Under the pieces are notes generated by a model. The model was not told the origin of the DNA, ran no database searches, and was given only the letters and a program-made list of their open reading frames with translations. DNA of 64,000 nucleotides. It comes from Promicromonosporaceae bacterium. GTDB taxonomy: Bacteria; Actinomycetota; Actinomycetes; Actinomycetales; Cellulomonadaceae. Location of the stretch: assembly GCA_009783295.1 (NCBI GenBank), contig WRHK01000011.1, positions 16,621-80,620 on the forward strand. Direction: 5' to 3'. This document shows, in pieces, positions 30,147-47,831 of the stretch. Numbering within the stretch: position 1 is the first letter of the stretch; every line of letters starts with the position of its first letter. A program made the position numbers and the translations under genes.

Positions 30147-30152
30147 ACCTAC

Positions 30153-31840: not shown

Positions 31841-31897
31841 GATAACCTAATCCCGAAGTACTGGTAGCCCCTCGGTCGTTCCGTAGAGTTAGCGCCT

Positions 31898-31930
31898 GGG
31901 CACGCGCAGACCTTGGAGTCTGCCGTGCCC
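31898..31930 (+). promoter_or_regulatory. Hairpin overlapping the start of the conserved small gene
   Basis: GGGCACG-C-GCAGAC (31898-31911) pairs with GTCTGCCGTGCCC (31918-31930), 13 bp with one bulge and a 6-nt loop. The likely GTG start (31925) is inside the right arm. A comparable long hairpin precedes the homologous gene in element 2 (45908-45950). Confidence 0.55.
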
Positions 31931-32128: not shown

Positions 32129-32352
32129 AGCGCCCCGGCGTGCAGACCGGGGCGCTGGAGACGTTTGGCGGCGTCTCCACGATGGTACGGCCGACCACTG
32201 ACGCCGGAGAGCTCGAGGGCGCCGAGATGCTCTGGCGCGCGCTCAAGGCTGCGCCGAAGCTCGACACGTCGCCGCGGCGCCCGTTCGCCGACATCGACCA
32301 GCACCGCAAGCACATGCGAGACCTGGACCGGTTCCTGGCGGCGATCGCATGA
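32125..32352 (+). CDS. Hypothetical element 1 protein, 75 aa
   Basis: A charged helical protein ('ELEGAEMLWRALKAAPKLD', 'DIDQHRKHMRDLDRFL'). Its GTG start overlaps the upstream stop and its stop overlaps the next ATG (ATGA), so it sits in a tightly coupled operon between the shared small protein and the rep-like gene. No family is recognised. Confidence 0.65.
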   Translation: MKRPGVQTGALETFGGVSTMVRPTTDAGELEGAEMLWRALKAAPKLDTSPRRPFADIDQHRKHMRDLDRFLAAIA

Positions 32353-32909: not shown

Positions 32910-33190
32910 CCGCCGCAACCACCACCCGCCGTCGTCGTCGGCGGCCCGACCTGTTCGCTGCCGCGGCCGCCGGCGAGCGGGACCTGTTCTCGGCATCGAT
33001 CGATGACGTCGAGCGCGAGGCCGGGAAGGTCTACCGCCAGATCGTGGCAGCAGGCGGCACCTGCCAGTGCGGCGCTCACGTCGCCTCGTGGCCCTGGGCA
33101 GACCGCATCGCCGGAGTGCCCGCTCCCGTGCCGCGCTTCGTGCCGCACGCCAAGGACTGCCCCGCCTGGATCGAACCGGAGGACTCATGA
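32906..33190 (+). CDS. Hypothetical element 1 protein with Cys/His cluster
   Basis: A 94-aa ORF starting ATG 32906 in ATGA overlap with the rep-like gene. A basic N-terminus ('TTRRRRRRPDLF') precedes a helical part and a possible metal site 'TCQCGAHVASWPW' with a later 'HAKDCPAW'. No family is recognised. The Arg run suggests nucleic-acid contact. Confidence 0.65.
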   Translation: MTAATTTRRRRRRPDLFAAAAAGERDLFSASIDDVEREAGKVYRQIVAAGGTCQCGAHVASWPWADRIAGVPAPVPRFVPHAKDCPAWIEPEDS

Positions 33191-33417
33191 GCAACAGGAC
33201 CGACTCCATCAGCGACGCCGTGCTGCTCGTGCGGCTCGTGGCGCGTGAGCAGTGGGCGGACGCGACCGCGCTGATCGAGAACTTCTCGCCTGCCGACTGC
33301 GCGTCCGTCGCCGGGACGCTCGCGGGTGCCTTCGCTCACTTCGTGCCCGATGTCGACGCGGTGCTCGACCAGATGCTGCTTGCGGTGGAGCACGAGACGA
33401 AGGGTGACGACCGATGA
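33187..33417 (+). CDS. Hypothetical element 1 protein, 76 aa
   Basis: An acidic helical protein ('VRLVAREQWADATALIENF', 'VLDQMLLAVEHE'). Its ATG 33187 overlaps the preceding stop and its own stop overlaps the next ATG. No family is recognised. The ORF-track version starting 33067 is an extension into the upstream gene. Confidence 0.65.
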   Translation: MSNRTDSISDAVLLVRLVAREQWADATALIENFSPADCASVAGTLAGAFAHFVPDVDAVLDQMLLAVEHETKGDDR

Positions 33418-33572
33418 CCGAGCGTGACCGCGGCAAGACGAAGCGCGCGCAGCAGACCGAGTGGCTCGAGACGAGGGACGACGGACTCGTGCACCCCGGC
33501 GTGCGATCGCGTCGACGAGTGCGCGATCAGCCGAGCGAGGACGAGCTGCATGACGTCGACGATCCGCGGTGA
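33414..33572 (+). CDS. Hypothetical basic 52-aa protein
   Basis: Below the ORF-track length cut-off. ATG 33414 overlaps the preceding stop (ATGA) and the frame runs to TGA at 33570-33572: 'MTERDRGKTKRAQQTEWLE' and a charged tail 'SRRRVRDQPSEDELHDVDD'. Coupling to the upstream gene is the main evidence that it is real. It closes the early gene string; a 180-bp gene-free stretch follows. Confidence 0.55.
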   Translation: MTERDRGKTKRAQQTEWLETRDDGLVHPGVRSRRRVRDQPSEDELHDVDDPR

Positions 33573-33642
33573 CCGACTGCGGGAGAGAGAAGTTGTTGAG
33601 GGCGGGGTCTTGGCCCCATCGCTGGCGCCCCGTCCGGCACCT

Positions 33643-33704
33643 ACCCCCCGGGGGGTGGGTCCGCAACGGGTCACGACATCGTGTCCCAGACCCCGCCCTA
33701 AGGA
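33643..33704 (+). repeat. Direct repeat copy A (about 62 bp)
   Basis: Nearly identical to copy B at 35911-35971: shared words GGGGGGTGGGTC, GCAACGGG, CCCAGACCCC and CGCCCTAAGGA. Copy A begins with a perfect 14-bp palindrome, ACCCCCCGGGGGGT, and is followed by CTTTTTT. Each copy lies 49-62 nt before the start of a structural-type gene. Confidence 0.75.
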
Positions 33705-33752
33705 CTTTTTTGGAAGCCCTCACCTGCACGAACACCCGAAGGAGAACCGACC

Positions 33753-34034
33753 ATGACCGAGAACCAGAACACGCGCAGCCCGTTCGATGCCGTCCAGCGA
33801 GGCAAGTTCGATCGCGCGCTGTCGTCGAGCGTGGACCTGCTGTTCGCATCGCCCGACGCCGCCTCGCTGCTCGACGAGTTCCTCGCCGGCGACCGCGTGA
33901 TGGTGATCGCCCGCGACGCGCTGGCGTGCGTGACGCCGCAGGAGGCCGTCGAGCTGTTCACCGGCAAGACCGCGGCGACGACCCCGACGCCGCAGACCGA
34001 CGCGGACGCGTTCCGCCCTGGCTTCTACGTGTGA
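33753..34034 (+). CDS. Hypothetical protein preceding the capsid gene
   Basis: A 93-aa acidic helical protein ('SSVDLLFASPDAASLLDEFL', 'TPQEAVELFTGK') with a disordered Thr/Pro tail. SD GAAGGAGA precedes the ATG. It lies between repeat copy A and the capsid leader RNA. The position just upstream of the capsid would fit a scaffold or capsid accessory protein, but no family is recognised. Confidence 0.65.
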   Translation: MTENQNTRSPFDAVQRGKFDRALSSSVDLLFASPDAASLLDEFLAGDRVMVIARDALACVTPQEAVELFTGKTAATTPTPQTDADAFRPGFYV

Positions 34035-34053
34035 CGGTGGCGCCCGGTAGACT

Positions 34054-34120
34054 GGCGATCGTTCCTGGTCCGGCAACTGCCGCAGGGACGCAAGGCCCCC
34101 GGCAGGGCCAGGCAATCGCC
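34054..34120 (+). ncRNA. Structured leader upstream of the element 1 capsid gene
   Basis: Nested complementarity: GGCGAT/ATCGCC (34054-34059, 34115-34120) encloses CCTGGTCC/GGGCCAGG (34064-34071, 34105-34112, with G-T), which encloses TGCC/GGCA. The word CCTGGTCCGG...GGGCCAGG also occurs on the sense strand just upstream of the element 2 capsid gene, although the proteins differ. A TAGACT box at 34048 may start transcription nearby. Confidence 0.5.
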
Positions 34121-34210
34121 GCCGCCGGGCGTACACCGCGCGACCGCGCACCAAGGGGTGCCAGCGGACGCAGCCCTCTTCCAGTACGCCCGCCCTTGGA
34201 GGCGATCCCC

Positions 34211-35725
34211 ATGAGTTTCACGTTCACCCGCGGCGGTCGGACCGTCAACATCAACCTGACGGCTGACCAGATTCGCGAGCGCATCGCGCAGATCGAGCGC
34301 AGCAAGAACCCGAGCATCAACGACCGCCAGGCCCTCGAGGACTTCGAGTTCGCGCTGTCCCTCGCTGGCGTGCCGGACCACATCCCCACGCTCGACGAGC
34401 GACGAGCGCGCGTCGCCGAGCTCGAGCGCTTCGAGCGGCGCTCGAACGCCCAGAACGACGAGCTGGCCGAGCACCGCGCCGCCGTCGCCGCCGATGACCA
34501 GAAGCGAGCCGCCCTGCTGCGTGCCGCCGGAAACCTCAACGCCCAGGAGGCCGCTGTGCCTGAGACCACCGCTCCGACGTCGTCTACGCGGAACATGAAC
34601 CCCATCGCCGCCAGCGCCTCGCGCTCCGTGCAGCTCGCCCGCGGCACGCTCGACACCCTGCACCGCTCGAACCACCTCGGCTCCGAGACCGCCGAGCGCA
34701 TCGAGCGGATGCTCGCCGGCACGCTCGACGACCCGACCGGCTCGGACGCCGCCCTGTGGGTGCGCACCGCGGGCAGCCCGGACTACCTGTCCGCGTTCGC
34801 CAAGCGCCTGCGCGACCCCGTGTCGGGGCACACCGAGTTCACCGCCGCCGAGGCCGAGGCGCACCGCACGGCGCAGTACTTCGGGCGTTCGGCGCTCGGT
34901 CTGTCGGGCGGCGCGTCGATGATCCCGCTCACCCTGGACCCGACGATCAACCTGACCAGCGCGGGCAGCAACGGCGGCATCCGCGGCCTGGCGCGGGTCG
35001 AGCAGATCACCACGAACTCGTGGAACGGCGTGACGTCCGGCGGCACGACGGCGGAGTGGAAGGTCGAGCACGCCGAGGCGTCGGACAAGACGCCGTCGGT
35101 CGGTCAGAAGACGATCCCGGTCTACACGCTCACGTGCAACGCCACGGTGTCGTGGGAGCTGCAGCAGGACGCGATGAACTTCAGCACCGAGCTGTCGCGC
35201 GTGCTCTTCGACGCGGCCGCCGTCTCGGTCGACGCCGCGCTCGCCACGGGCACCGGGTCAGGCCAGCCGACGGGCATCATCACCGCGGCCACGACGTCGC
35301 CCGTCTCGACCGGTGGCGCGTTCTCCTCGGCCAACGTGGTCGCGCTCCAGAACGCGATGCCGGCCCGGTTCAGCCAGAACGCCTCGTTCGTCGCCCCGCT
35401 GCCCGTCATCAACGCCGTTGGGTCGTTCGAGACCGCGAACGGTGCTCTGCGCTTCCCCGAGGTCTCCGACGGGCGCCTGCTGCACCGAGGTCTGACCGAG
35501 GACTCGAACCTGTCCGCCGACATGACGACGACCGGCTCGAAGTTCATGGTCTACGGCGACTTCCGCCAGTACCTCGTGGCCACGCGCGTCGGTGCGTCGA
35601 TCGTGGTCCTGCCGAGCTTCGGCGCGAACGGGCGCCCGACGGCGGACAACAACTTCTTCGTGGCCCTGCGGGTCGGCGCCGACGCGCTGATCCCGGGCGC
35701 CTTCCGGGTGCTGACCAAGAGCTAG
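34211..35725 (+). CDS. HK97-fold phage major capsid protein with N-terminal helical extension
   Basis: A 504-aa protein. Residues 1-~165 are helical and charged (scaffold/delta-like domain, 'RRARVAELERFERRSNAQN'); the rest has HK97-type capsid features: 'SMIPLTLDPTINLTSAG', 'TAEWKVEHAEASDKTP', a 'LSRVLFDAAAVSVDAALATG' helix and a C-terminal 'FRQYLVATRVGASIVVLPSF'. The ATG at 34211 is used; the ORF-track start at 33569 reads through two other genes. No protease or portal gene is adjacent. It should form the element's procapsid shell or redirect a helper's assembly. Confidence 0.87.
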   Translation: MSFTFTRGGRTVNINLTADQIRERIAQIERSKNPSINDRQALEDFEFALSLAGVPDHIPTLDERRARVAELERFERRSNAQNDELAEHRAAVAADDQKRAALLRAAGNLNAQEAAVPETTAPTSSTRNMNPIAASASRSVQLARGTLDTLHRSNHLGSETAERIERMLAGTLDDPTGSDAALWVRTAGSPDYLSAFAKRLRDPVSGHTEFTAAEAEAHRTAQYFGRSALGLSGGASMIPLTLDPTINLTSAGSNGGIRGLARVEQITTNSWNGVTSGGTTAEWKVEHAEASDKTPSVGQKTIPVYTLTCNATVSWELQQDAMNFSTELSRVLFDAAAVSVDAALATGTGSGQPTGIITAATTSPVSTGGAFSSANVVALQNAMPARFSQNASFVAPLPVINAVGSFETANGALRFPEVSDGRLLHRGLTEDSNLSADMTTTGSKFMVYGDFRQYLVATRVGASIVVLPSFGANGRPTADNNFFVALRVGADALIPGAFRVLTKS

Positions 35726-36032
35726 CGCGTCAACGTCACCCGCCGGGCCGGTTCCTCACCTTCGGGTGCGGCCTGGCGGGAGCGATGGACCGGGTTCCCG
35801 TTCTCCTCGCCCGTCCAGCGCGCTCGGCCCGGGGCACCGCAACGGGGGTTGCGGTCGCGGGCCTGCCGCCCGGGGGTGCGCCGTTGTGGGCTCACCCCCG
35901 GGCCTGCAAGACCCCGGGGGGTGGGTCAGCAACGGGGCACGGACCGAGGCCCCAGACCCCCGCCCTAAGGAAAAACACACACGCCGAATGTGGGGGGATC
36001 GACCCTCGCTGACCTGCGGAAAGAGGACAACC
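35726..36032. other. Gene-free 307-bp interval between capsid and tape-measure-like genes
   Basis: No credible ORF on either strand. It holds GC-rich inverted segments (CACCCCCGGG / CCCGGGGGGTG) and repeat copy B, and ends with the SD AAGAGGA of the next gene. Confidence 0.6.
35911..35971 (+). repeat. Direct repeat copy B (about 61 bp)
   Basis: Second copy of the repeat at 33643-33704; the CCCTAAGGA end is followed by an A-run. It lies about 60 nt before the tape-measure-like ATG, matching the position of copy A before the 33753 gene. Confidence 0.75.
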
Positions 36033-37085
36033 ATGGCCACAACGCTCGAGTTCAACGTCATCGGCGTCGACAAGGCATCGTCCACGTTCTCAGCGGTCGG
36101 CGACTCGGCGAAGGCGTCGTCTCAGAAGATCGTCGAGGCGTCAAAGGAGGCCGGTGGCGGCCTCGACTCGATCGCCGAGGGGTCCGACAACGTGGCGTCC
36201 AAGGGCGCGCAGGCTGCGGGCGCTCTGTCGGGTCTCGGGTCTGTCGTCGGTGGTCCGATCGGTGGGGCGATGGTCGGCGTCGGGTCGGCGATGCAGATCG
36301 CGGCGGATGCCGGTGACCTGCTCAACGCCGCCGTAGAGGGCGGACGGCTCGCGCTAGAGGCATTCAAGAACAGCACCATCGTGACGACCGTCGTCGAGAA
36401 GGCCGCCACGGCGGGAAAGATCGCGTCCGCTGCCGCTGCCGGTGCCGTCGCCGCTGCCTCGGGGGTCGCGACGGCGGCGCAGTGGGCGTGGAACGCGGCA
36501 ATGACAGCGAATCCCATTGGTCTGATCGTGGCGGGCATCGCCCTGCTGATTGCGGGCATCGTCCTACTCGTGAAGCACTGGTCCAGCGTCAAGAGCGCCG
36601 CCGTCGACGCCTGGGACGGCATCAAGGGCGCATGGAACGGCGCCGTGAGCTTCTTCGAGGGCATCGGCAACAGCATCAAGGGCGCGTTCAAGGGTGCGTT
36701 CAACGCCGTTGCTGGCTGGTGGAACCACGGCCCGGGGTCGCTGTCCTGGACGGTGCCCTCGTGGCTGCCTGGCATCGGCGGGCACACGCTGAGCGTCCCG
36801 AACATCCCCATGCTCGCGACAGGCGGCACGATCGCTCAGCCTGGCTGGGCCGTCGTCGGAGAGCGTGGCCCAGAGTGGGCCTGGATGCCTCAGGGTGCCG
36901 GTGTGCTGCCCCACGGGGTGCAGCCGCCTGCCGCTGGATCATCCGACAGTGGTGCGGTCGTGGCCGAGCTCCAGGCGCTGCGTGAGGCGATCGTGCAGCA
37001 CGGTGTCCAGGTTGCCTCTGGTGTGCTGGCCGTGAGCGACCGGGCGGCGGCGGGAATGAGACGCACGCAGGGTCGCTGGGCGTAG
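36033..37085 (+). CDS. Short tape-measure-like phage protein
   Basis: A 350-aa protein with tape-measure character: Ala/Gly/Ser-rich helices, a hydrophobic 'NPIGLIVAGIALLIAGIVLL' segment followed by 'HWSSVKSAAVDAWDGIKGAW' amphipathic repeats, and a C-terminal 'AVVGERGPEWAWMP' found in many tape-measure proteins. Normal ones are 2-5 times longer and specify tail length. No other tail gene is recognised. It may be a remnant, or a factor acting on a helper tail. SD AAGAGGA supports the ATG at 36033. Confidence 0.75.
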   Translation: MATTLEFNVIGVDKASSTFSAVGDSAKASSQKIVEASKEAGGGLDSIAEGSDNVASKGAQAAGALSGLGSVVGGPIGGAMVGVGSAMQIAADAGDLLNAAVEGGRLALEAFKNSTIVTTVVEKAATAGKIASAAAAGAVAAASGVATAAQWAWNAAMTANPIGLIVAGIALLIAGIVLLVKHWSSVKSAAVDAWDGIKGAWNGAVSFFEGIGNSIKGAFKGAFNAVAGWWNHGPGSLSWTVPSWLPGIGGHTLSVPNIPMLATGGTIAQPGWAVVGERGPEWAWMPQGAGVLPHGVQPPAAGSSDSGAVVAELQALREAIVQHGVQVASGVLAVSDRAAAGMRRTQGRWA

Positions 37086-37095
37086 GCACACGCAG

Positions 37096-37137
37096 AGGGC
37101 CGCCGTGGTTGTCCGATCGGACGCCTACGGCGGCCCT
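37096..37137. terminator. Hairpin after the tape-measure-like gene
   Basis: AGGGCCGCCGT (37096-37106) pairs perfectly with 37127-37137, and the loop holds a 12-bp palindrome, GTCCGATCGGAC. It lies 10 bp after the stop. Confidence 0.8.
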
Positions 37138-37421
37138 TGCTCTGTCCCCCACCCCGAACAACCCACGAACCATCGCCCGATATCGCGTCTCGGATCACGA
37201 CCAGTGGCGCACCCCCGGATCGGGAGCGCGCTGAGCGTGAACACCCGGCGTCGTCGTGCACTACGTCGTCGAGCGGCCCCCGACCGTCAACGGGGGACGA
37301 AGCATGTACGGCGGTCGCTGATTGCGGCTCAGGACCGTGAAGGAGGAAGCCGAGAACAGGCCCAGGAGGCTCGCTCAGAGCGCCGGACGGACGATCGCCC
37401 GCCCGGCACCCTCAACGAGCC
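37138..37421. other. Gene-free interval of element 1
   Basis: Several overlapping ORFs run through here on both strands, but none has an SD or protein-like composition. I see no gene. A 16-codon GTG ORF continues the minus-strand overlap chain at about 37375-37425 but is too short to trust. Confidence 0.5.
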
Positions 37422-37535
37422 TCACAGGGCGTTCTGGGCCTCGTACTGGCGCATCGCTTCCACGAGCTCAAGCGCTCCGTCTGCCCAGGCGTCGGCGATC
37501 TGGCCCACGGTCATGTCGTCGTCGACGGCGCTCAC
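37422..37535 (-). CDS. Small 37-aa protein coupled to the membrane-protein gene
   Basis: GTG 37535 overlaps the TGA of the upstream gene (GTGA). The product is acidic and helical ('MTVGQIADAWADGALELVEA'). It is too short for the ORF track. Tight coupling is the main support; the role is unknown. Confidence 0.5.
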   Translation of the reverse strand: MSAVDDDMTVGQIADAWADGALELVEAMRQYEAQNAL

Positions 37536-37741
37536 AGGTTCACGCTCACGAAGGCGTGCCCGGCGTAGTTACCCTGCTGCTCAGCGCGCCACACGCACAC
37601 CGAGGCGCCGGAGCCGTCGTCGGACGTGCACGCGGGAGCGAACACCACGGCCAGGACGACGGCGAGAGCAGCGGCGAGCGCGGCGATGGAAGCCCAGAAG
37701 GCCACCTCGAACGCGACGTCGCCGACGGTAAGGTTCTTCAT
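37532..37741 (-). CDS. Small membrane/lipoprotein-like protein near the right end of element 1
   Basis: 69 aa from ATG 37741 (SD GGAAGAGG 8 nt upstream). A hydrophobic helix, 'LAAALAVVLAVVFAPAC', ends at a Cys that could be a lipobox cysteine, followed by a Ser/Gly/Asp-rich exposed tail with a second Cys. It is transcribed against the structural genes, away from the attachment site. Its location suggests a lysogenic-conversion gene (for example surface exclusion), which is inference. Confidence 0.65.
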   Translation of the reverse strand: MKNLTVGDVAFEVAFWASIAALAAALAVVLAVVFAPACTSDDGSGASVCVWRAEQQGNYAGHAFVSVNL

Positions 37742-37841
37742 GACAGGCACCTCTTCCTAGGTGGTTGTCAGCCCGTCCGGAGTTGCACCTCCGAGGCGGG
37801 CGTTCTTGTCTCAGGTAGGCGAGTCATCCGCCCACGCACTG

Positions 37842-38385: not shown

Positions 38386-39243
38386 ATGGGCGTGCTCGCC
38401 GGGCTGGGCCTGGGGCTCGGGTTGTTCGTGGTCTGGTGGTCCTTCTGGGTCCCGAGCGGGCAGCCGCGCCGGGTGTCCGCGCGGCGTGCGCGCACCCAGG
38501 ACCTGCTGGTCCAGGCGGGCGTCGCGTCGGTGACCCCGGGCGGCCTGTACGCGGCGAGCGCTGCGCTCGGGGCCGTCGTGCTGCTCGTGGTGCTCGCCAC
38601 GACGCGGTCGCCCGCGATCGGCCTGTGCTTCGCCGTGATGGCCGCGGCGGCGCCGTCGGCCCTGGTCACGGCACGCGCCCGACGACGACGCCGCGACCTG
38701 CGCGAGGTGTGGCCCGAGGTGGTCGACCACCTCGCCTCCGGGGTGCGCGCCGGGCTGTCGCTGCCCGAGGCGGTCGGGCAGCTCGGCGAGCGCGGCCCCG
38801 TGGAGCTGCGCGAGCCGTTCGCCCGGTTCGCGGCCGACTACCGCGCGACCGGGCAGTTCACGCCCTGCCTCGACGGGCTCAAGGCCCGCCTCGCCGACCC
38901 CGTGGCCGACCGGATCATCGAGGCGCTGCGACTGACGCGCGAGGTGGGCGGGTCCGACCTGGGGCGGCTGCTCCGGACGCTCTCGACGTTCCTGCGGGAG
39001 GACGCCCGCACTCGCGGGGAGCTCGAAGCCCGTCAGAGCTGGACCGTCGCCGGTGCTCGCCTCGCCGCGACCGGCCCCTGGGTGGTGCTCGCCTTCCTCG
39101 CGACCCGGCCCGAGACGGCCCGGGCGTACGACTCCGCGGCGGGCGTGCTGGTGCTCGCGGGCGGGGCCGCCTGCTCCGTGGTGGCATACCGGCTGATGCG
39201 CCGGATCGGGCGGCTGCCCGAGGAAGGCCGGGTGCTGCGATGA
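38386..39243 (+). CDS. tadB: TadB-type pilus assembly membrane protein
   Basis: A 285-aa T2SSF-domain protein: N-terminal membrane helix, a second pair of helices near residues 55-90, a cytoplasmic T2SSF region ('EVVDHLASGVRAGLSLPEAV', 'GGSDLGRLLRTLSTFLRED') and two C-terminal membrane helices. It should form the inner-membrane platform with TadC on which the TadA ATPase acts. Its stop overlaps the tadC start (ATGA). It is intact, but its partners on both sides are broken. Confidence 0.88.
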   Translation: MGVLAGLGLGLGLFVVWWSFWVPSGQPRRVSARRARTQDLLVQAGVASVTPGGLYAASAALGAVVLLVVLATTRSPAIGLCFAVMAAAAPSALVTARARRRRRDLREVWPEVVDHLASGVRAGLSLPEAVGQLGERGPVELREPFARFAADYRATGQFTPCLDGLKARLADPVADRIIEALRLTREVGGSDLGRLLRTLSTFLREDARTRGELEARQSWTVAGARLAATGPWVVLAFLATRPETARAYDSAAGVLVLAGGAACSVVAYRLMRRIGRLPEEGRVLR

Positions 39244-40118
39244 CCGCCGGGTTCTCCGCGACCGGCGCGCTCCTCGGGCTCGCGTTCGGGCTGGGGCTGC
39301 TGGTCGCGATCGCCGGGCTGCGCGAGCGCCGGATGACGCTGGCCCGCCGCCTGGCCCCCGCGCTGCGGCAGCGCGATGCGACCAGCGGCCTGCTGCGCGA
39401 GCAGCCCGCGCGCTCGCCGTTCCCCGTGGTGGAGCGCCTCCTGGCGCCGTGGGTGGCGGACATCGCCGGCTGGTTCGAGCGGCTCGGGTCGACGCGCGCG
39501 GACGTGCGGCGGCGGCTCGACCGGGCCGGGTCGGCCGAGACGGTCGACCAGTTCCGCGCCCGGCAGGTGGTGTGGACCGTCTCCGGGCTGGGCGCCGGCC
39601 TGGCGCTCGCGCTGCTCATCGGCGCGGCCCGCGGCTTCGCCCCGCTGCCCCTCGCGCTGCTGGTGCTGCTCTGCGCCGCGTGCGGCTTCGCCGGCTGCGA
39701 CCAGATGCTCGCCCGTCAGATCACCCAGCGCGAGGAGCGCATGGTCGCGGAGTTCCCGACCATCGCCGAGCTGCTCGCCCTGGCCGTCACGGCCGGCGAG
39801 GCGCCCGTCGCGGCGCTCGAGCGCGTCGCGACGACCGCGCACGGCGAGCTCTCGGCCGAGATCCGCCGGATGCTCGGCGACGTCCGCGCCGGAGCGCCCG
39901 TGGGGCAGGCCCTCACGGACATGGCCGACCGGACCGGGCTCCCCTCCCTCGCGAGGTTCGCGGAGGGCGTGGCCGTCGCGCTCGAACGAGGCACGCCTCT
40001 GGCCGACGTGCTCCGCGCCCAGGCCCAGGACGTCCGCGAGTCGGGGCGCCGCGCCCTGATGGAGCTCGGCGGCAAGCGCGAGGTCGTGATGCTCGTGCCG
40101 GTCATCATCGACCTGTAA
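39240..40118 (+). pseudogene. tadC: tadC, truncated at its 3' end by element 2
   Basis: Codons 1-284 are TadC: N-terminal helix, helices at ~115-150, and the T2SSF domain ('EFPTIAELLALAVTAGEAP', 'GDVRAGAPVGQALTDMAD', 'GKREVVML'). After GATGCT at 40088-40093 the frame enters element 2, reads eight foreign codons and stops at 40118. The lost 28 codons, which form the last membrane helix and the tail, are found in frame at 47747-47831. Precise joining gives 312 aa. A TadC without its C-terminal helix is unlikely to insert properly. Confidence 0.9.
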
Positions 40119-40131
40119 CCCTTCGTTCACC

Positions 40132-40944
40132 TCAGGTCAGGCTGTCCCGCTCCGCAGACTCCCGCTCCCCCGGGTGGATCGCCGCCCGGAGCGCCAAGAG
40201 CAATGCGCCGCAGGTAGCCTTCACGGCCTCCTGGCATTCCCGAAGCGCCTCGCCCGTCGGCGGGTGCCCCGGTATCTGGTCGAACCGGCCCACCAGAACG
40301 TCGACCATAACCAGCATCCGCAGCGACGTGTCGGCGACTGCCTGCCCAGCCCTCGCGACCTCAACCGCGCCGAGCAGCATGACCTCGTCGAGTGCCCGGT
40401 CGAACTCGTCGTGAGCCGCCTCTAGGTCGTCTTGATACGCCTTGCCGCGGAGCTTCCACTGCTCGACGCTGTAGTGCGCGACGCTGCTCGACGACGCGAC
40501 CCTGCGCAATGCCCTTCGCGCGCGTTCTAGGTCGACGTACGCCTCGCGGGTCGCGTCGAGCATGTGGGCGTGGGTGGCCTGACTAAGAGCGTTCTCGTGA
40601 CGCATGTTCTCGGCGTCGATCGCGGCCCTCACGCGCGCATCCTCTGCTGTGCGCGCCTCGTAGCGGCGGCGATCCTCCGCTTCGCGCTCCGCCTTCGCGC
40701 GGCGGTCCTCCGCCGCGAGCGTCGCAACCGCCTGACGGCCCTCGGCCTCACGTGCGGCCGCTGCCCGTCGGTTCTCGGCGTCGAGCACGTTGGCCGCTCG
40801 GACGTTCTCCGCATCGATGGTGTTCGCGGCGCGCAGGTTCTCCGCCTTGATCATGCTGTGACTCGACCAGATGCTCGCGAACACCACACCGAACAGCGCA
40901 ACGCCCGCAACGACCAGGGGCACCCAGACGCTTGGATCTTTCAT
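40132..40944 (-). CDS. Membrane-anchored protein with eight 11-residue repeats
   Basis: A 270-aa protein: one N-terminal membrane helix (residues ~7-27), then eight consecutive 11-residue units each starting AE ('AENLRAANTID', 'AENVRAANVLD' ... 'AENMRHENALS', about residues 34-121), predicted to form a hendecad coiled coil, then a helical C-terminal domain. No family is recognised. It lies just inside the left end of element 2, where satellites and prophages usually carry accessory or defence genes. TAGCGT 6 nt upstream suggests a leaderless mRNA and its own promoter. Confidence 0.8.
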   Translation of the reverse strand: MKDPSVWVPLVVAGVALFGVVFASIWSSHSMIKAENLRAANTIDAENVRAANVLDAENRRAAAAREAEGRQAVATLAAEDRRAKAEREAEDRRRYEARTAEDARVRAAIDAENMRHENALSQATHAHMLDATREAYVDLERARRALRRVASSSSVAHYSVEQWKLRGKAYQDDLEAAHDEFDRALDEVMLLGAVEVARAGQAVADTSLRMLVMVDVLVGRFDQIPGHPPTGEALRECQEAVKATCGALLLALRAAIHPGERESAERDSLT

Positions 40945-41028
40945 GCCGCGACGCTATCGGCGCAGGCGTCGGGTTGAATCGCACCGACACACCGCGACGA
41001 CGCCTGCATGCGCGCCCACACTGTCGGA

Positions 41029-41295
41029 ATGACGACGACACCCCTGCCCGCCTGGGCCACCGAGCGACACAGCACATTCGACGACGGATCCGCCCTCGTC
41101 GCCCGCGCCGCATCGACCAGCCTCGGCACCGTGGTGCTGCTCGGATCACAGGCCGCCGACGGCACCACGGACGTTGCCGCCGGGTTCGTCCTTGAACTGC
41201 CACCGGCAGACGTGATGGTCCGGGACGCCGCACAGATACGCGAGCTCGCGAACGCTCTAGCGGATCTCGCCGACGCCCTGGACGCGGGAGTCTGA
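41029..41295 (+). CDS. Hypothetical element 2 protein, 88 aa
   Basis: Starts ATG 41029, divergent from the coiled-coil gene with 84 bp between. The small acidic product begins 'MTTTPLPAWATERHSTFDDG' and ends in a helix 'IRELANALADLADALDAG'. No family is recognised. It is the only plus-strand gene found in element 2, so it could be a regulator or a partner of the divergent gene; this is speculation. Confidence 0.55.
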   Translation: MTTTPLPAWATERHSTFDDGSALVARAASTSLGTVVLLGSQAADGTTDVAAGFVLELPPADVMVRDAAQIRELANALADLADALDAGV

Positions 41296-41658
41296 CCCCG
41301 GGGGCATGGCCCTCGACCTGCGGAAATGTCTCATTCCCCCTAAGGTTAGCGATCTCTCCCCAAGCAACCCCCCGGGTACCGCTAACAAGGCGATTAGGTG
41401 GCATTCTGTGGGGTCTGACCTGGGCGTTTGAGTGCCGGACGTGAGTACCGCAATGGGTGTCACACGTGCCGTTAGCGCTATGCCTTCGGGCACGAAAAGG
41501 CGGCCCCGTCCCTACCCGCGGAAAAACGGAGCCGCCCTCGTCGGCACCTTCGTCTGGTCGCTCCATCACCCATGAATTGAAAGGACGACCCGGCGCGCGT
41601 GCCTACGGCCAGCCTGCCATTCCCGCGTCGGGCACCGACGGATAAGGCGACAAAGCGA
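41296..41658. other. Gene-free, less GC-rich interval of element 2
   Basis: No convincing ORF. It contains GTTAGCG (41345-41351), its inverse CGCTAAC (41380-41386) and GTTAGCGC (41471); the same word occurs at 31888 in element 1. It may hold regulatory sites between the convergent 41029 and capsid transcription units. Confidence 0.5.
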
Positions 41659-41690
41659 CGCCCGGCCGTCGTGTTTACGACGGCCGGGCG
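41659..41690. terminator. Terminator after the element 2 capsid gene
   Basis: CGCCCGGCCGTCG (41659-41671) pairs perfectly with 41678-41690 around TGTTTA. On the minus strand it is followed by CTTTGTC and on the plus strand by TTGTTCT, so it can act in both directions. Confidence 0.88.
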
Positions 41691-41702
41691 TTGTTCTGCG
41701 AA

Positions 41703-42553
41703 CTACGCCGCCGAGTCGGCAACCGTGAACTTCGCCAGGCGCTCCGGGAACGTGACCTTTGCACCAATACGCCAGGTCGCGCGCAGCACGGTCGCGTCGC
41801 GTTGAACAGCGCGTGCTCGCTCACGGCGACGCGGACGTCGCCGATCGCGGACACAATGGCGCTCTTGTCGAGAACCATGAGGGTCGACCCCGTGATGAAC
41901 GGCGAGACCAGCACGGGCAGGCCCAGCAGCACGCGCGCGGCGTCCTCGGTGCCCGCGCCGAGCAAGGTCGCGTTGTAATCGGTGCCGACGCGCAGCTGGC
42001 GCAGGCGGCCCCACGCCTCGGGCGACGCGACGATGTGAGTCGGCTGCGCAAGGTTGCCCTCGACCTCGGCAATACCGGCGACCAGCGCGTCGAGATTCCC
42101 GTCGATCACGCCGCCGTCGACAATGCCGGAGGCGTTAAGCAGCCCGCCGGGCGGCGTCAGGGCCGGGGCGGCCGGGTTCGGGGCCGCGATGTATGCGGCG
42201 TCGGCGGCGGCGGTCAGCGACCGGCCGAACGACCGCGCGATCATCGGGGCCGTGGCGCTCTGGTGGTACTGCTCGTTGCTCAGCCGGGCGAGCTTTGCGA
42301 CCTTGCCCGTCGCGATGACGACCTCGTCGAGCTCGGGGTTGTCAATCTCGATCTCGTCGCCCTCGGGAACGAACCCGGCGACGCCGTCGCGAATGAACGC
42401 GGCGCGCACGAACTGAGAATCGCCGTCGACCTGCGCGACTCGCGTCGAGGTCTGGGTGATAAGAGCCTCGGGAACGATCGTGTCCGGGGCGAACGTGTTG
42501 ACGTCCGGCGACCAGGATGCCGCGCTATTTCCGGTGGTAATCAGGGAAGACAT
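41703..42553 (-). pseudogene. Phage major capsid protein, frameshifted near the C-terminus
   Basis: From ATG 42553 the first ~250 residues are an HK97-like capsid protein of the shorter type: 'IVPEALITQTSTRVAQVDGD', 'GDEIEIDNPELDEVVIATGK', 'DAAYIAAPNPAAPALTPPGG', 'GLPVLVSPFITG'. After 'SEHALFNA' the frame becomes Arg/Ser junk to 41675. The normal ending 'DATVLRATWRIGAKVTF' lies in the next frame and stops at 41703, at the terminator. One missing base near 41795-41803 explains both. Either the gene is recently broken or there is a sequencing error. Confidence 0.82.
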
Positions 42554-42666
42554 TTGGTCTGCCCCTTTCCGGCGGCCTCTATGCCGCCAACGTGACGAAT
42601 GGATTTCGTCCGTCGGCCGCAGGCCGTCCGGCGTGCCCCACGGGGGCCGCTAGAACAAAAGGGTGG

Positions 42667-42717
42667 GCACCTGGCCCGGCATCCTTCGCTCAATGCAAAG
42701 AATACCGGACCAGGCCC
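42667..42717 (-). ncRNA. Structured leader upstream of the element 2 capsid gene
   Basis: On the minus strand CCTGGTCCGG (42714-42705) pairs with CCGGGCCAGG (ending 42670), and the inner TATTCTTTGC/GCGAAGGATG continues it to a 20-bp hairpin with G-U pairs and an ATTGA loop. The element 1 capsid leader shares CCTGGTCCGG...GGGCCAGG. It lies directly after the stop of the scaffold-like gene; a T-rich CCTTTTGTTC follows, so attenuation is possible. Confidence 0.5.
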
Positions 42718-42719
42718 TT

Positions 42720-43205
42720 TCACCAGGAATACGAACTGTCGTGGTGGCGCTTGGACGGCGGGCGGAATGCGTCCACGAGGCGGTTCGGCACGTCGTCCGG
42801 AGCCGGGCGGCCCGGAGGCACGTGTCTGCGGTTCCCGAGCGGCGGCCCGGCCAGGCCAAGCGCGTCGGCCGCACTCGTGATCGCCGCGTGAGCCTTGTCG
42901 GCGTCGACGCGCCCGTCGTCGGCGAGCAGGTCGGCGAGGTTTACTCCGGCGGCCCACACGGCCGACGGCTGCGCGACGACCTTTGCCGCCATGTTCTCGA
43001 CGACCTCGCGGCGGACGGCGTCGAGCTGCGCGACCAGCGCGTCGCGCTCGGCCTCGACCTCCCGCAGCGCGGTGCGGTAGCGGGCGGCGTCGCGGCCCGC
43101 TCGGCTGCCCTCGGGCGCCTCGGGGGTCGTGTCGGTGGTAGGGGTGCCCTCGACCGGCGTCGGGTCGGTCTCGGTGCCCTCGACGGGCGTGGTGTTCTCG
43201 GTCAC
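42720..43205 (-). CDS. Probable capsid scaffold-like protein
   Basis: A 161-aa acidic protein with a Thr/Pro-rich disordered N-terminus, a coiled coil ('RTALREVEAERDALVAQLDA') and a C-terminal basic tail. Composition and position one gene before the capsid are typical of phage scaffolding proteins, which guide capsid assembly. No direct family signature is visible. Its ATG overlaps the stop of the 43777 gene (ATGA). Confidence 0.6.
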   Translation of the reverse strand: MTENTTPVEGTETDPTPVEGTPTTDTTPEAPEGSRAGRDAARYRTALREVEAERDALVAQLDAVRREVVENMAAKVVAQPSAVWAAGVNLADLLADDGRVDADKAHAAITSAADALGLAGPPLGNRRHVPPGRPAPDDVPNRLVDAFRPPSKRHHDSSYSW

Positions 43206-43777
43206 GATGCGTCCCCAACCAGGCGGGCCAGGGCAGGGCGGCCGGACGGCAGGTAGGCGCGTCCGACCATGAGCTGCTCGGTGACCTCGCGGGTCACGGG
43301 GCCGTCAGGGGTGTCGAACGTCTCCAGGTGCGTGACGTCGACCGTCTGCCCCTCCATTTCGGCGAGGGCTTCGAATGCGGCGATCAGGTCGGCCTTGGTG
43401 GTGTCCACGGGATGGATCTCCTTCGGGGTGGTGGTTGCGGTGGTCGTGTCGTCGAACGCGTCGAGCGCGTCGGTGACGGCCGCCAGGCGGGCGCGCACGT
43501 CCTCGCCACCGGTCGCGGCGATGTGGTCGAGCGCGGGCGCCACGACGAGCTCGGCGAGGTAGACGAGGGCGTCGACGGCGACGTCGCGCCACACGTCTCC
43601 ACCGACGGCGCGGCGCCACGTGGTGATGACGTGGTCAACGACGAATGCGGAGTCACCGGCCGCGACGGCGACGTCGACGGCCAGCCGCAGGCCGCGCCGT
43701 CCTCGCGTGTTGAGCAGCCGGGCGAAGCGGGCCGGGGCGTCGGGGTCGCGGAACAGGTCGTGCACGGGGTCGGTCAT
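43202..43777 (-). CDS. Hypothetical element 2 protein with a possible internal start
   Basis: A 191-aa protein: a helical N-terminal domain (~1-110), a Thr-rich linker and a C-terminal domain of 68 residues beginning 'VDTTKADLIAAFEALAEMEG'. Inside the linker, GAAGGAGAT lies 7 nt before an in-frame GTG (43408), so the C-terminal domain may also be made separately. Nested in-frame products are known for phage protease/scaffold genes. No family is recognised for either part. Confidence 0.65.
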   Translation of the reverse strand: MTDPVHDLFRDPDAPARFARLLNTRGRRGLRLAVDVAVAAGDSAFVVDHVITTWRRAVGGDVWRDVAVDALVYLAELVVAPALDHIAATGGEDVRARLAAVTDALDAFDDTTTATTTPKEIHPVDTTKADLIAAFEALAEMEGQTVDVTHLETFDTPDGPVTREVTEQLMVGRAYLPSGRPALARLVGDAS

Positions 43778-43818
43778 GGGCAGCCTTTCGGGGTTGTGTG
43801 TCGGGGTTGGCGTCCGAA

Positions 43819-43965
43819 CCGTCCGACCCGTCCGAACGCCAGCGTTTTCAACGGCTCGGGCGGACGGGTCACGGACGGGTCGGACGGTTCGGCGGACGGA
43901 ACGGACGGGTTACGGACGGATGCCCGAACGCCCGATTTCCGTTGGGAACATTGGGCTTCGGACGG
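43819..43965. repeat. CGGACGG iteron array
   Basis: CGGACGG occurs at 43861, 43872, 43881, 43893, 43902, 43913 and 43959, and in inverse form (CCGTCCG) at 43819 and 43828. The six central copies are 9-12 bp apart, about one helical turn, so bound proteins would lie on one face. It fills the 225-bp gap beside the DUF3631 replication gene and is a good origin candidate. Confidence 0.78.
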
Positions 43966-44002
43966 TTCCGGACGCTTGGGACGCATGCCCGGCAGGCACG
44001 CG

Positions 44003-45175
44003 TCATGACGCGGCCTCGACGTCGCCGTCGGCAGGTGCCAGGTATCTGTCGAACGCGTCCGTGAACCGGGGGACCTTGTACCCGCGAGCCGTTTTCGTCG
44101 TGTTGTGGGTCGGCTCGATCGCGTACGGCTTCAACATCGCGGCCAGGCGTCGGCCGGTCAGCGCGTCCTCCACCCACCGCGACTCCGGCAGCGACTTCAA
44201 GTGGACCAGCAGCGTCTCGGTGGCCACGAATGCGTTGCCCGAGAGCGTGCTGGTCAGCACCTGGCGGCAGTCGCCCAAGAGCTCGTGGCCGTCGGAATGG
44301 TCGGCGTCGGCCTTGGCAGCCTCCCGGGACAGCGCGACGGCCGCGTCGCGGGCCAGGCGCGGCCACGCCCCACCGGCGAGATCGGCCACCGCGAGGAGCG
44401 GCTCCCACAGGTCGGCCGCACGGTCCTCTAGCGGCGTCTCGGGGTGCGCGAACCGCAGCCGCTCGACGTGCTCGCCGATCCACGCCCCGAGCTCGTCGCG
44501 CAGCACAAGCAGGTCGTCAAGATTGCGCGACTGCCGAAACGGCGAGACGCGCTCCGTGGGCTTACGACGCCGGAGCCGGATGTTCACGGCGCGATCCGTG
44601 ATGGTGTCCGGGAGTCGGCCAATTGCTGCCATGACCACGGGCGCGAAAACGTGGAATTCCGTCGGCACGTGGTTCGGGCCGACGGTGCGCAGCACGGGCG
44701 TGCCGCGTTGAAATCCGGCATTGATGAGACCGCGCAAGTCCTCGTTCTGCTCGGCCTTGACCTTGGTGCCGAAAATGGTGTCGGCCTCGTCGAACAGCAC
44801 CGTGCGTGGGGTGTCGAGCGACCGGAACAGGGCGGGCACGGTCGCGTTCGCCGCGAACAGCGGGCCGTGGCAAAGGTGCCCGACGACCTCCATCGTCCGG
44901 GTCTTTCCGGAGCGCTTTTCCGGGGACGTGAGCAGCAGGCGCGGCGCGAAGTCGAACGCGGACGCCGCGTGCGTGTACGCCGCGTACAGGGCGAGCGCGG
45001 TATAGGCGTGCTCCGACGGTTGGACGGTGTAGCGCCGGATCGTGTCGAGCACCCGGCCCAGCAGCCGCTCGCCGACGTCGCTCGGGGCCGACGTGTCGGG
45101 GTTGTTGCGCATGAACGTGGCGAGAGCCGCCTGGCGGGCAGCGTCGTCGCGCGCGTCGTCGTCGTGGTCCGTCAC
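44003..45175 (-). CDS. DUF3631 P-loop replication protein
   Basis: A 390-aa protein with a P-loop 'TSPEKRSGKTRTMEVV' (about residues 78-93), Walker B-like 'VLFDEADTIFG', 'FAPVVMAAIGRLPDTITDRA' and the family-typical 'NIRLRRRKP', followed by a C-terminal winged-helix-like domain with 'PYAIEPTHNTTKTARGYK'. DUF3631 proteins are found in plasmids, ICEs and phage-like elements such as the mycobacterial phiRv elements, usually with primase-polymerase modules, and are presumed helicase-like replication factors. The GTG start at 45175 overlaps the upstream stop (GTGA). Confidence 0.85.
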   Translation of the reverse strand: MTDHDDDARDDAARQAALATFMRNNPDTSAPSDVGERLLGRVLDTIRRYTVQPSEHAYTALALYAAYTHAASAFDFAPRLLLTSPEKRSGKTRTMEVVGHLCHGPLFAANATVPALFRSLDTPRTVLFDEADTIFGTKVKAEQNEDLRGLINAGFQRGTPVLRTVGPNHVPTEFHVFAPVVMAAIGRLPDTITDRAVNIRLRRRKPTERVSPFRQSRNLDDLLVLRDELGAWIGEHVERLRFAHPETPLEDRAADLWEPLLAVADLAGGAWPRLARDAAVALSREAAKADADHSDGHELLGDCRQVLTSTLSGNAFVATETLLVHLKSLPESRWVEDALTGRRLAAMLKPYAIEPTHNTTKTARGYKVPRFTDAFDRYLAPADGDVEAAS

Positions 45176-45684
45176 GCCGCCGCCCTCCCGGCCCGTCGCC
45201 GCTCGGCGTCGGCTGCAGCTTCGATCTCCCACGCGTCGACGTCGTTGCGAATCCAAGTGAGGGCGACGCGCAGCCGCTCGGCGGCGGCGTCCCACACGGG
45301 CCACACGGGGGCGTTCGCGGCCTCACGAGCGCGCCGTGCCGCAGCGTCCACCGCGCCCTCGGCACGCGGCCCCAGCTGCGCCCAGAGGGCCGCGTGGGCG
45401 TCGGCGATCTCGGCCGCGCGGGCGTCGTACCCGGCGCGGAACCCGTCGGCGTGCCCGGCGTCGTACCCGTGGGCGAACGTCCCGTGCAAGGTGGTCACGG
45501 TGTGCTCGGCGGCCTCGTGCCCGGCGAGCCAGGCGGCGGCCTCGACCAGCGTCGGAGCACCACGTTCGGGTGCGACGACGGGCGGCGGCATGTCAGTGGC
45601 GGCACGTACCGTGGTTGTGAGCGCGGTAGTGGGTACGGCGGCCCGAGAGGGGCGCCGTTCTCGCGTGGTGGGGCCGTGAGTCAC
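45172..45684 (-). CDS. Hypothetical element 2 protein, 170 aa
   Basis: Starts GTG 45684 in overlap with the upstream small gene and ends in overlap with the DUF3631 gene. It is Ala-rich, with a disordered N-terminus, a His/Gly/Asp segment 'HGYDAGHADGFRAGYDARAA' and a C-terminal helix. No family is recognised. Its place in the early operon suggests a replication accessory protein. Confidence 0.62.
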   Translation of the reverse strand: MTHGPTTRERRPSRAAVPTTALTTTVRAATDMPPPVVAPERGAPTLVEAAAWLAGHEAAEHTVTTLHGTFAHGYDAGHADGFRAGYDARAAEIADAHAALWAQLGPRAEGAVDAAARRAREAANAPVWPVWDAAAERLRVALTWIRNDVDAWEIEAAADAERRRAGRAAA

Positions 45685-45896
45685 GGGGCACCACCGCCCA
45701 GCAGGGACGCGAGGCGCGTGGACTGCTCGGCCGTCAGTGGCGGCGCCTGCGCCAGAACCTCTTCGATGTACGCGGCTAGGCGCTCGGCGCGCAGGTCTCG
45801 GCGGGCGTCGGCCAGCTCGGGGTCGTCGGCGGTACGCGAGCGGGTCAGCGACGCGACGCGCGCCCGGTGGTGGGTCCAAGGTTTGGTTTCGGCCAT
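45681..45896 (-). CDS. Small protein shared by both elements (homologue of 31925-32128)
   Basis: A 71-aa protein ending 'QAPPLTAEQSTRLASLLGGG', clearly related to the element 1 protein through 'ADARRDLRAERLAAYI' and the C-terminal motif. It is the first gene of the leftward operon leading to the DUF3631 gene. The shared motif places it among the few genes common to both elements. Function unknown; basic helices would suit nucleic-acid binding. Confidence 0.78.
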   Translation of the reverse strand: MAETKPWTHHRARVASLTRSRTADDPELADARRDLRAERLAAYIEEVLAQAPPLTAEQSTRLASLLGGGAP

Positions 45897-45907
45897 GTTG
45901 GTGGCTC

Positions 45908-45950
45908 CCGGAAAGGGACAGCGCGCAGGCGCGTTGTCTTTGCTTTCCGG
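45908..45950. promoter_or_regulatory. Large inverted repeat upstream of the shared small gene
   Basis: CCGGAAAG (45908-45915) and CTTTCCGG (45943-45950) flank GACAGCGCGC-AGG-CGCGTTGTC, itself palindromic with one or two mismatches, 12 nt before the start codon at 45896. It may be an operator or an RNA hairpin controlling the early operon. Confidence 0.55.
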
Positions 45951-46289
45951 TCACCCACGGCTCGCGAACCTCAAGGCGCTTCGTGGTGTTCCGTCGGGCT
46001 GGTGCCCTAGGGGTGTTGAGCCCCTTCCCGGATGTGCGGCAGTCTCCATTCTGCCCACCGGGGATTCAAGCCGAATCCGTATTCGTTTGCCAGGAATGAG
46101 GTCATTCCCTGCCCCTTTCGGGGATGCCGTTGTTTCTCGGCACGGGGGCTTTTCCCTGCCCTCTCGGGTTGCCGCCTTGCCGGGCAGCACGTCGCGGTCT
46201 TAGCCGCTCTTTGTGCTCGACCGTACTAGGTGCTTACCGGCGAAGCGCAACCGGGGCCGTGACGGCGTCGCGTCCTGCACTATCTATTG
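45951..46289. other. Gene-free interval between integrase and early operon
   Basis: Visible ORFs (for example 46032-46229) lack SDs and have biased composition. Base composition is less GC-rich and there are short hairpins such as GGATTC-AAGCC-GAATCC. It probably contains the promoter of the leftward operon; no specific site is clear. Confidence 0.5.
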
Positions 46290-47720
46290 TCACGACCCGC
46301 TCGGCCGCACCCATTCGATGCGCACCGAGCGCTCGTCGAATCCACCGCCCGACCCGGTCGGGAGGATCGTCACAACCATGAGCGTTTCGACGACCGCGCG
46401 CTGTACCTCCAGCGGCGCCGCTGCCCAGCGCTCGGCAGCGTCCGGCCCAGCGAGGTCGAGCACCCCAGGATGCGGGGCGCACGTCGCCAGCTCGGCCCGC
46501 CACGCGTCCACCTGCGGAATCAACTTCGCATTGATCCGGCGCACCTGGTCGGCGGTCATCGTTCCGTCGGCAAACCCGTCGGCCGCCAGGTCGAGCCGCG
46601 CCTGTGCCCCGGCGACCAGGTCGTGCAGTTCCACCGCACGCTCGGGGCGCCCGGCTGCCAGCGCCGCGATGCCGTCGGGCATCGTCAAGCGCTCGACCAC
46701 GAGCGGCACCACGACGCCCTCGACGGCGTCCTTCTGCCGCCCGACCCGGTAGCACCCCGTGCACTGATACTTCGGCTTGACGACCTTGCCCTTATACGTC
46801 GAGCCGGGAACAACGCGCATGGTGTGCCCACAGCGCCCACAGCGCGCGATGCCCGACAGCAGATGCTTACGGGTCGCGCCCTTGTTGCTCGCGCCCGTCG
46901 TGCGCGCCGGATCGGTCAGCAGCGCCACCACCCGGGCGTGCGTGTCCTCGTCATAGATCGGCTCCCACGCGGCCTTGCCGACGACCTTGCCCCGGTGACG
47001 GCGCAACCCTGCGTTGCGGTCGCGGAGCATGACTTGCCGCAACGTGGTCGATGACCACGGCACGCCCTTCGGCGACGCCATGCCGCGCTCGTTCAACGCC
47101 TTGACGACGCTCCGCATCGACTCACCGGCCAGCACCCGGCGGGCCGTCTCGCGGATCACCTCGGCCTCTTCGGGAACGATCTCGTCGTGCGACCCGATGT
47201 GACGGCCGCGCTCGTCCTCGTCGCGCACGCGCCGGTACCCGTAGGCGACCTGCCCGTGCGGGCGCCCCTCGACGGCCCTCTTGTCGGAGTCGCGGCGGCT
47301 GCGAAGCGACGTCTTCTCGGATTCGTACGCGGAGTCGGTGCCGTCCTCGACGAGCGTCTTCCAATCGCGGGCGATGCGGCAGTCGTACAGCCGCTCAGCG
47401 GTGACCACGTAGATGCGAATGCCCCGCTCGCGGCACTCCGCGAGCATCGTCACCCACGACGGCAGGTCGCGGTCGCCGCGCGACGGCTCCCACAGGATCA
47501 GGATGCCGAAGCGGTCAGCGCGTAGGTCGCCAAGCAGGCGGTCCCAATCGGCGCGGCCCTTCTTGGCGAATCGCGACGCGCTGCTGCCGTCGCTGTAGAC
47601 CTCGCCCAGCGTCCAAGCGTTCTCGGCGGCGACACGCGATCCGAGCTCGATCTGCTGCTCGATCGACGTCTTCTTGTCCTTGCTCTGCCTGCCGTAGATG
47701 ACGGCGATCTCGGGTGCCAT
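46290..47720 (-). CDS. Large serine integrase of element 2
   Basis: A 476-aa serine recombinase from ATG 47720: catalytic 'VIYGRQSKDKKTS' (Ser13), 'ILILWEPSRGDRDLPSW', recombinase domain ('GRPHGQVAYGYRRVRDED'), a complete zinc ribbon ('CGRCGHTMRVV', 'YQCTGCYRVG') and a C-terminal coiled coil. It is only distantly related to the element 1 integrase, consistent with a different target. It starts 20 bp from the right core and reads inward; TACCCT 7 nt upstream suggests a leaderless mRNA. Confidence 0.93.
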   Translation of the reverse strand: MAPEIAVIYGRQSKDKKTSIEQQIELGSRVAAENAWTLGEVYSDGSSASRFAKKGRADWDRLLGDLRADRFGILILWEPSRGDRDLPSWVTMLAECRERGIRIYVVTAERLYDCRIARDWKTLVEDGTDSAYESEKTSLRSRRDSDKRAVEGRPHGQVAYGYRRVRDEDERGRHIGSHDEIVPEEAEVIRETARRVLAGESMRSVVKALNERGMASPKGVPWSSTTLRQVMLRDRNAGLRRHRGKVVGKAAWEPIYDEDTHARVVALLTDPARTTGASNKGATRKHLLSGIARCGRCGHTMRVVPGSTYKGKVVKPKYQCTGCYRVGRQKDAVEGVVVPLVVERLTMPDGIAALAAGRPERAVELHDLVAGAQARLDLAADGFADGTMTADQVRRINAKLIPQVDAWRAELATCAPHPGVLDLAGPDAAERWAAAPLEVQRAVVETLMVVTILPTGSGGGFDERSVRIEWVRPSGS

Positions 47721-47746
47721 GCTCAAAAGGGTACTAGATCGATGCT

Positions 47747-47831
47747 GACTCCCGTCGTGTTCCTGATCCTTCCCGTCACGGTCGTCTTCGCCGTCTTCCC
47801 GTCGCTGGCCACGCTCCGCGTCGGCCTGTAA
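47747..47831 (+). pseudogene. tadC: tadC, 3' remnant beyond element 2
   Basis: 85 bp encode the missing TadC end, 'PVVFLILPVTVVFAVFPSLA' plus a short tail to TAA at 47829-47831, a hydrophobic helix typical of the TadC C-terminus. It has no start of its own. It continues the frame of the 5' part exactly after GATGCT. Confidence 0.9.

Follow-up and report, generated by a model that had tools for sequence, protein, structure and literature searches.

A gene for a membrane-anchored 11-residue-repeat protein at the edge of a small integrated element in an actinobacterial tad locus

The gene and the element that carries it

The window analysed here, i.e. the whole stretch of 64,000 nucleotides from a Promicromonosporaceae bacterium, contains a gene (40132–40944, minus strand) for a membrane-anchored 11-residue-repeat protein of 270 amino acids with an ATG start, recognised from the open reading frame listing, its homologues and an AlphaFold2 model; the translation starts with MKDPSVWVPLVVAGVALFGVVFASIW. 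This 11-mer gene belongs to element 2, an insertion of about 7.65 kb in tadC at a site that is uninterrupted in the sister species. Comparison with the uninterrupted tadC places the left attachment core, CCGGTC, at 40098–40103 and the right core, CCCGTC, at 47751–47756. The interrupted 5′ part of tadC (39240–40103, plus strand) matches tadC of relatives, which is continued straight after it by the 3′ part (47757–47831, plus strand).

The remaining recognised genes of element 2 lie mostly on the minus strand. They encode a large serine recombinase acting as integrase (46290–47720, with the start set at an internal ATG within the element; NCBIfam XisF, E=3.8e-15; CcrB, E=1.7e-6), a DUF3631 protein (44003–45304; Pfam PF12307, E=1.7e-49) and an HK97-type major capsid protein (41675–42553; Pfam PF05065, E=4.4e-8; PHROG 10, E=2e-12). 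A putative scaffold gene (42720–43205) is so named from being kept beside the capsid gene in the related loci L061–L064. No terminase, portal or tail genes were recognised among the open reading frames of element 2 scanned against Pfam and PHROG, and a complete phage or prophage was therefore rejected as an identity for the element. As the serine recombinase and the HK97 capsid gene both lie inside 40098–47756, element 2 is classed, from its gene content, as a PICI-like satellite by the loose criterion of an integrase plus a capsid gene (PMC10654092). This criterion was used to define candidate PICIs in mycobacteria, where those of slow growers correspond to phiRv1 and phiRv2 (PMC10654092). 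Element 2 differs from these mycobacterial satellites (PMC10654092) in host family, in its insertion in tadC and in its cargo, which is the 11-mer membrane protein rather than a toxin cassette, phiRv1 having been compared by description.

The end of the 11-mer gene lies 28 bp inward of the left core (attL), and the integrase gene occupies the opposite end of the element, so that both would flank attP in the excised circle. The preliminary description had placed the gene alone at the inner edge; its position in a cargo slot at the edge of the integrated element holds, but a small open reading frame of 95 codons (41008–41295, plus strand; other possible start at 41029), with a weak relative in the satellite L062 (E=1.9e-4), diverges beside it. 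Related capsid or scaffold genes occur at five loci (L061–L065), which diverge beyond the capsid gene. In this region L062 carries a PIN-like pair (read from translations) and a Schlafen-type SLFN_AlbA_2 protein, L063 a 150-aa membrane protein and the remaining loci unknown genes, while in the window the corresponding region is filled by the 11-mer gene. Judging from these five loci, cargo at the slot past the capsid gene is probably replaceable.

The presence of the gene in a satellite, adjoining the capsid and scaffold genes, could also be explained by a role in the life cycle of the element, in which the protein would act on helper-phage morphogenesis or on assembly of the element's own particles. 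Such a role is considered very improbable, since homologues also occur in islands, in complete prophages and in an element with a relaxase, no 11-mer gene was seen in four of the five capsid-bearing relatives, and the gene has a predicted promoter of its own and encodes a membrane anchor.

Architecture of the encoded protein

A single transmembrane helix is predicted at residues ~7–25 (40870–40926, minus strand), in accordance with the membrane anchor described previously, and hydropathy and charge bias in 14 homologues indicate an N-out/C-in orientation. Basic residues are commoner on the C-side of this helix in nearly all homologues. Under the well-established positive-inside rule, this bias implies that the stalk and the bundle that follow should be cytoplasmic.

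The stalk is formed by eight 11-residue units at residues 34–121 (40582–40845, minus strand), identified by a periodicity test and the AlphaFold2 model. Units 1–4 read AENLRAANTID, AENVRAANVLD, AENRRAAAARE and AEGRQAVATLA, and units 5–8 AEDRRAKAERE, AEDRRRYEART, AEDARVRAAID and AENMRHENALS. The previously described gapless array of AExxRxxxxxx units over 88 residues was borne out by the periodicity test and by shuffling: identity at lag 11 amounted to 39 matches against 11.6 expected, all of 20,000 shuffles stayed below this value, and the longest period-11 AE run among 50,000 shuffles was four. The term 'perfect', applied earlier to these repeats, is nevertheless slightly overstated, as AE opens all eight gapless units but arginine occupies position 5 in seven of them (Q in unit 4). 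At the DNA level the units are only 36–70 % identical, which accounts for the array being unreported by TRF and marks the repeat as old; a recent DNA-level expansion in the window gene was rejected on account of this divergence.

In the AlphaFold2 model, obtained with a four-sequence alignment as input, one unbroken helix (residues 4–152) spans the membrane segment, the stalk and the first helix of the C-terminal domain, and is followed by helices at 160–191, 194–223 and 230–256. The mean pLDDT is 85.7, and the stalk blocks mostly score 93–98. The C-terminal region (residues 122–256; 40177–40581, minus strand) is thus predicted, from the model and a homologue profile, to comprise the end of the long helix and three further helices packed as a four-helix bundle, which agrees with the helical domain proposed earlier to follow the repeats. 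The G072 relative was modelled with the same plan and a shorter long helix (23–133).

Whether the stalk forms the hendecad coiled coil that was initially predicted is less clear. The gapless 11-residue period agrees with such a structure, but the hydrophobic moment at 98 degrees per residue is not above that of shuffles (p=0.86), and each unit offers only one large hydrophobe able to form a core (position 10), where three of the eight units have arginine. The stalk is also rich in alanine (29.5 %) and contains eight acid-to-base pairs at i+3 and six at i+4. Because a coiled coil would be expected to have a stronger hydrophobic core, a rigid single-helix stalk and a weak coil with an Ala/Ile core appear equally possible. 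A lipid-binding 11-mer amphipathic helix of the synuclein or apolipoprotein type was rejected, the 11/3 hydrophobic moment being absent.

Variation in stalk length

Repeats were found in nine homologues, in all of which the first AE (SD in G023) lies 14 residues past a conserved GV motif in the membrane helix. They have 2, 2, 3, 3, 3, 4, 4, 4 and 8 units, and the distance from GV to a conserved tyrosine of the C-terminal domain is either 5 mod 11 (115, 71, 71, 49 and 49 residues) or 4 mod 11 (59, 59 and 70 residues), a pattern with a probability of about 1e-5 if homologues were independent, which relatives are not. Since 11 residues correspond to three helical turns, the domain may keep nearly the same azimuth as the stalk lengthens or shortens. 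The phase may be needed for function, although duplication of units would by itself yield the same mod-11 pattern, and the last two units of G223 are identical, which points to a likely recent duplication.

A speculative and rather improbable extension of these observations is that the protein stands for a new, element-borne class of phage-exclusion proteins and works as a molecular ruler, with the number of units setting, in three-turn steps of ~1.65 nm, the depth at which a four-helix sensor or effector is held in constant orientation, tuned to a target such as phage ejection or the pilus machinery. The natural series of 2, 3, 4 and 8 units offers a ready-made experiment on membrane-to-domain distance and function.

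A predicted leaderless promoter

A TANNNT motif located ~12 bp upstream of the start codon is a mark of actinobacterial leaderless genes (PMC3160421), and leaderless genes make up 26 % of those with a primary start site in M. tuberculosis, where leaderless transcripts predominate among toxin–antitoxin pairs (PMC3898074). The 11-mer gene of the window corresponds to this description (PMC3160421), as it is preceded by TAGCGT (40951–40956, minus strand), a TANNNT-type −10 box whose first T is placed at −12 relative to the ATG, and has no Shine–Dalgarno sequence. Among homologues with starts picked beforehand (neighbours excluded), 9 of 12 lack a Shine–Dalgarno sequence and show a TANNNT box whose first T falls at −12 to −14; if the start may be selected from those in frame, G023, G037 and G285 join them, so that the position is kept in 12 of 15. 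The homologues lacking the box include those of G397 and G118, both close behind an upstream gene. The background frequency of the motif is 1.2 % at all ATGs of the window and 12.5–17.6 % at likely gene starts in the same loci, which gives enrichment probabilities of about 1e-6 and 2e-7 with relatedness ignored.

A scan for the sigma70 consensus was uninformative, with no site found against 0.1 expected; the earlier proposal that the gene has its own promoter is supported by the leaderless-type −10 box and not by a sigma70 consensus. Given the conservation of the box, the 11-mer gene most likely travels with its own promoter and would be expressed outside the lytic programme of the element.

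Distribution and genomic contexts of homologues

Homologues were found at about 15 loci, mostly in Cellulomonadaceae. Matching genomes, including that of the window, account for 16 of 222 in this family (some matches being weak), 4 of 396 in a sample of the order and 3 of 395 in a sample of the class, and none of 10 other genomes of the genus carries a homologue. The loci lie largely in prophages, islands or conjugative elements. The G072 prophage is bounded on one side by a serine integrase gene, and the homologue is close to its opposite end; G213 carries the homologue in a prophage with a terminase, inserted in tadA, and in G292 it accompanies prophage genes that adjoin a truncated tadA. 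Further homologues are located near a phage-type DUF7341 gene (G037), in a tRNA-Gly island with a tyrosine integrase (G113), in an element with a TrwC relaxase (G206) and at integrase-flanked loci (G023 and G118, with an nSTAND-like gene adjacent in G118). No obvious mobile genes were seen near the G111 homologue or the second G213 copy.

Scans of IMG/VR recovered one relative, that of the G072 prophage, and tblastn of the window protein and three relatives against 50,697 phage records gave no match, which speaks against a routine structural or holin–spanin gene of tailed phages, the finding that the preliminary description had regarded as adverse to its proposal. A lysis function, as a holin, antiholin or spanin-like protein, might be considered in view of the single membrane helix followed by a charged helix, the weak PHROG matches of some relatives to holins and spanins (E 0.02–0.04) and the location of the G072 homologue at the end of the tail cluster, where it adjoins a gene for a small membrane protein. 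This function is, however, disfavoured and scarcely credible: the G072 homologue is on the strand opposite to the late operon, and the large cytoplasmic four-helix domain, the occurrence outside phages and the empty phage-record search all argue against it.

Searches of Pfam, PHROGs, NCBIfam and PADLOC gave no significant domain-covering match for the protein, and PADLOC none for four relatives. The earlier statement that no known defence family is recognisable stands, as PADLOC returned only a 45-residue match of a Cmr1 model over the membrane helix (E=0.0019). Neither the window protein nor the G072 relative matched any plasmid record. A structure search retrieved only generic four-helix bundles and helical proteins, with nothing at E<=0.001, and the sole sequence match among solved structures, the SPFH protein QmcA (PDB 8z5g; residues 26–95, E=3.4e-4), is confined to the membrane end and stalk and was judged compositional.

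The protein resembles Streptomyces-type hypothetical proteins with a VxLxGPxEV motif (L097/L098), which have a membrane helix and a short linker. Their C-domain can be aligned with that of the 11-mer protein by profile (two proteins; hhalign probability 76.9 %, E=2.1e-5), whereas the members seen have no AExxR 11-mer stalk. The main alternative to a conflict role follows from this similarity: the protein could belong to a broad superfamily of helical, membrane-anchored proteins of actinobacteria and have a housekeeping or stress role, its gene being passively carried by mobile elements. Similar neighbouring proteins in G019, G111 and L097 and the annotation of plasmid copies only as 'hypothetical protein' are consistent with such an origin, which is nevertheless thought unlikely in view of the very patchy distribution of the subfamily and its mostly mobile contexts.

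Association with tad pilus genes

Six of the 15 loci (G000, G213, G292, G397, G019 and G223) are in or beside tad clusters, G019 being counted through the resemblance of its neighbour to the gene after tadE in L048; under a crude model, the probability of this association by chance is ~5e-9. In G223 (L043, 9676–10344), the homologue stands alone, without an integrase, in a second flp/tad cluster, where the spacer is shorter in sister genomes. These loci raise the possibility that the protein is a Tad/Flp-pilus factor that acts on the pilus machine at the inner membrane, and that its carriage by elements in tad loci serves to modify a pilus with a possible function as phage receptor. This possibility appears quite improbable, because at least six homologues are located elsewhere and tad genes are insertion hotspots for unrelated elements lacking the 11-mer gene, such as element 1 in tadA and a G008 element in tadB, so that the hotspot may alone explain most of the association. 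Small actinobacterial elements appear to insert recurrently in the tad pilus genes.

Element 1 (window 30129–37838) is the second small element of the same tad operon, and its site in tadA is likewise uninterrupted in the sister species. It encodes a serine integrase (30153–31520, plus strand) and a tape-measure-like protein (35766–37085, plus strand), and its integrase-distal edge bears a small single-membrane-helix gene of unknown function (37532–37750, minus strand; phrog_19904, E=2.4e-8). At 32703–32804, a 22-bp palindromic motif, AGGGGGTCAGATTCTGACCCCC, occurs in three nearly identical copies that resemble operators or iterons. The third element, in tadB of the sister species G008 (L083, about 850–18600), contains a serine recombinase gene and genes that resemble type III restriction–modification (named by reading translations); tadA, tadB and tadC have each been struck once within one genus. 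In G397 (L048, 8344–11094), two fragments of tadA flank the homologue and a full tadA follows downstream, an arrangement that looks like the outcome of successive integrations in tadA.

Possible role in phage exclusion

Among the readings considered, the most likely one for the 11-mer protein is that its helical domain, tethered to the membrane and lying in the cytoplasm, excludes competing phages or defends the cell against them, a reading regarded as possible though short of probable. It is suggested by the position of the gene at the edge of the element, the mobile contexts and patchy distribution of its homologues, the predicted leaderless promoter and the kind of alternative cargo found in related elements. 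Several observations point the other way: no significant match to a defence or exclusion family or fold was obtained, the G111 homologue and the second G213 copy lack obvious mobile neighbours, and the wider circle of relatives in Streptomyces-type genomes may consist of ordinary chromosomal genes.

In the proposed mechanism, the 11-mer gene would be an accessory ('moron' or cargo) gene of mobile elements, transcribed from its own leaderless promoter during dormancy of the element. The protein would be inserted in the membrane by its one N-out/C-in helix, and the charge-balanced, unbroken alpha-helical stalk of 11-residue units would reach about 13–14 nm into the cytoplasm and present the four-helix-bundle domain, which whole-unit differences in length among relatives would leave unrotated relative to the anchor. 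The tethered bundle might then engage the DNA of an incoming phage, the machinery of ejection or a membrane target of the host; in this way it could protect the host cell of the element from competing phages.

Partial parallels exist among known systems. The RexB-like Butters gp31 and its counterparts in Sbash and CarolAnn are exclusion or abortive proteins of actinophage prophages with four membrane passes and a cytoplasmic partner (PMC7542560). The likeness lies in the expression of membrane proteins from mobile elements outside the lytic programme, whereas the 11-mer protein, compared by description, unites a single pass with a long stalk and a bundle in the same chain. The Zorya protein ZorA is likewise a phage-defence membrane protein with a long cytoplasmic helical tail. 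The window protein, however, gave no PADLOC match to it, has a single pass and lacks a ZorB-type partner gene.

Element-borne membrane accessory proteins are a known kind; what appears to be new here, as judged from sequence comparison, is the graded 11-mer stalk, with whole-unit steps across the family, and the conserved predicted leaderless promoter across homologues. If confirmed, the proteins would constitute a family of mobile-element cargo absent from the defence, phage and protein-family libraries searched, with AExxR 11-mers that begin exactly 14 residues past the GV motif and a TANNNT box at −12 as diagnostic marks.

Other repeats in the window

Two further regions of the window contain short repeats. 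At 56141–56239, two arrays of 20-bp repeats abut in opposite sense (CCAGCGCTCTATCTCGCGGA / TCGCGAGATAGAACCGTGGA), and at 58278–58324 an exact 19-bp tandem repeat, TCAGGTCGGTGAGACGGGA, is present in 2.5 copies.
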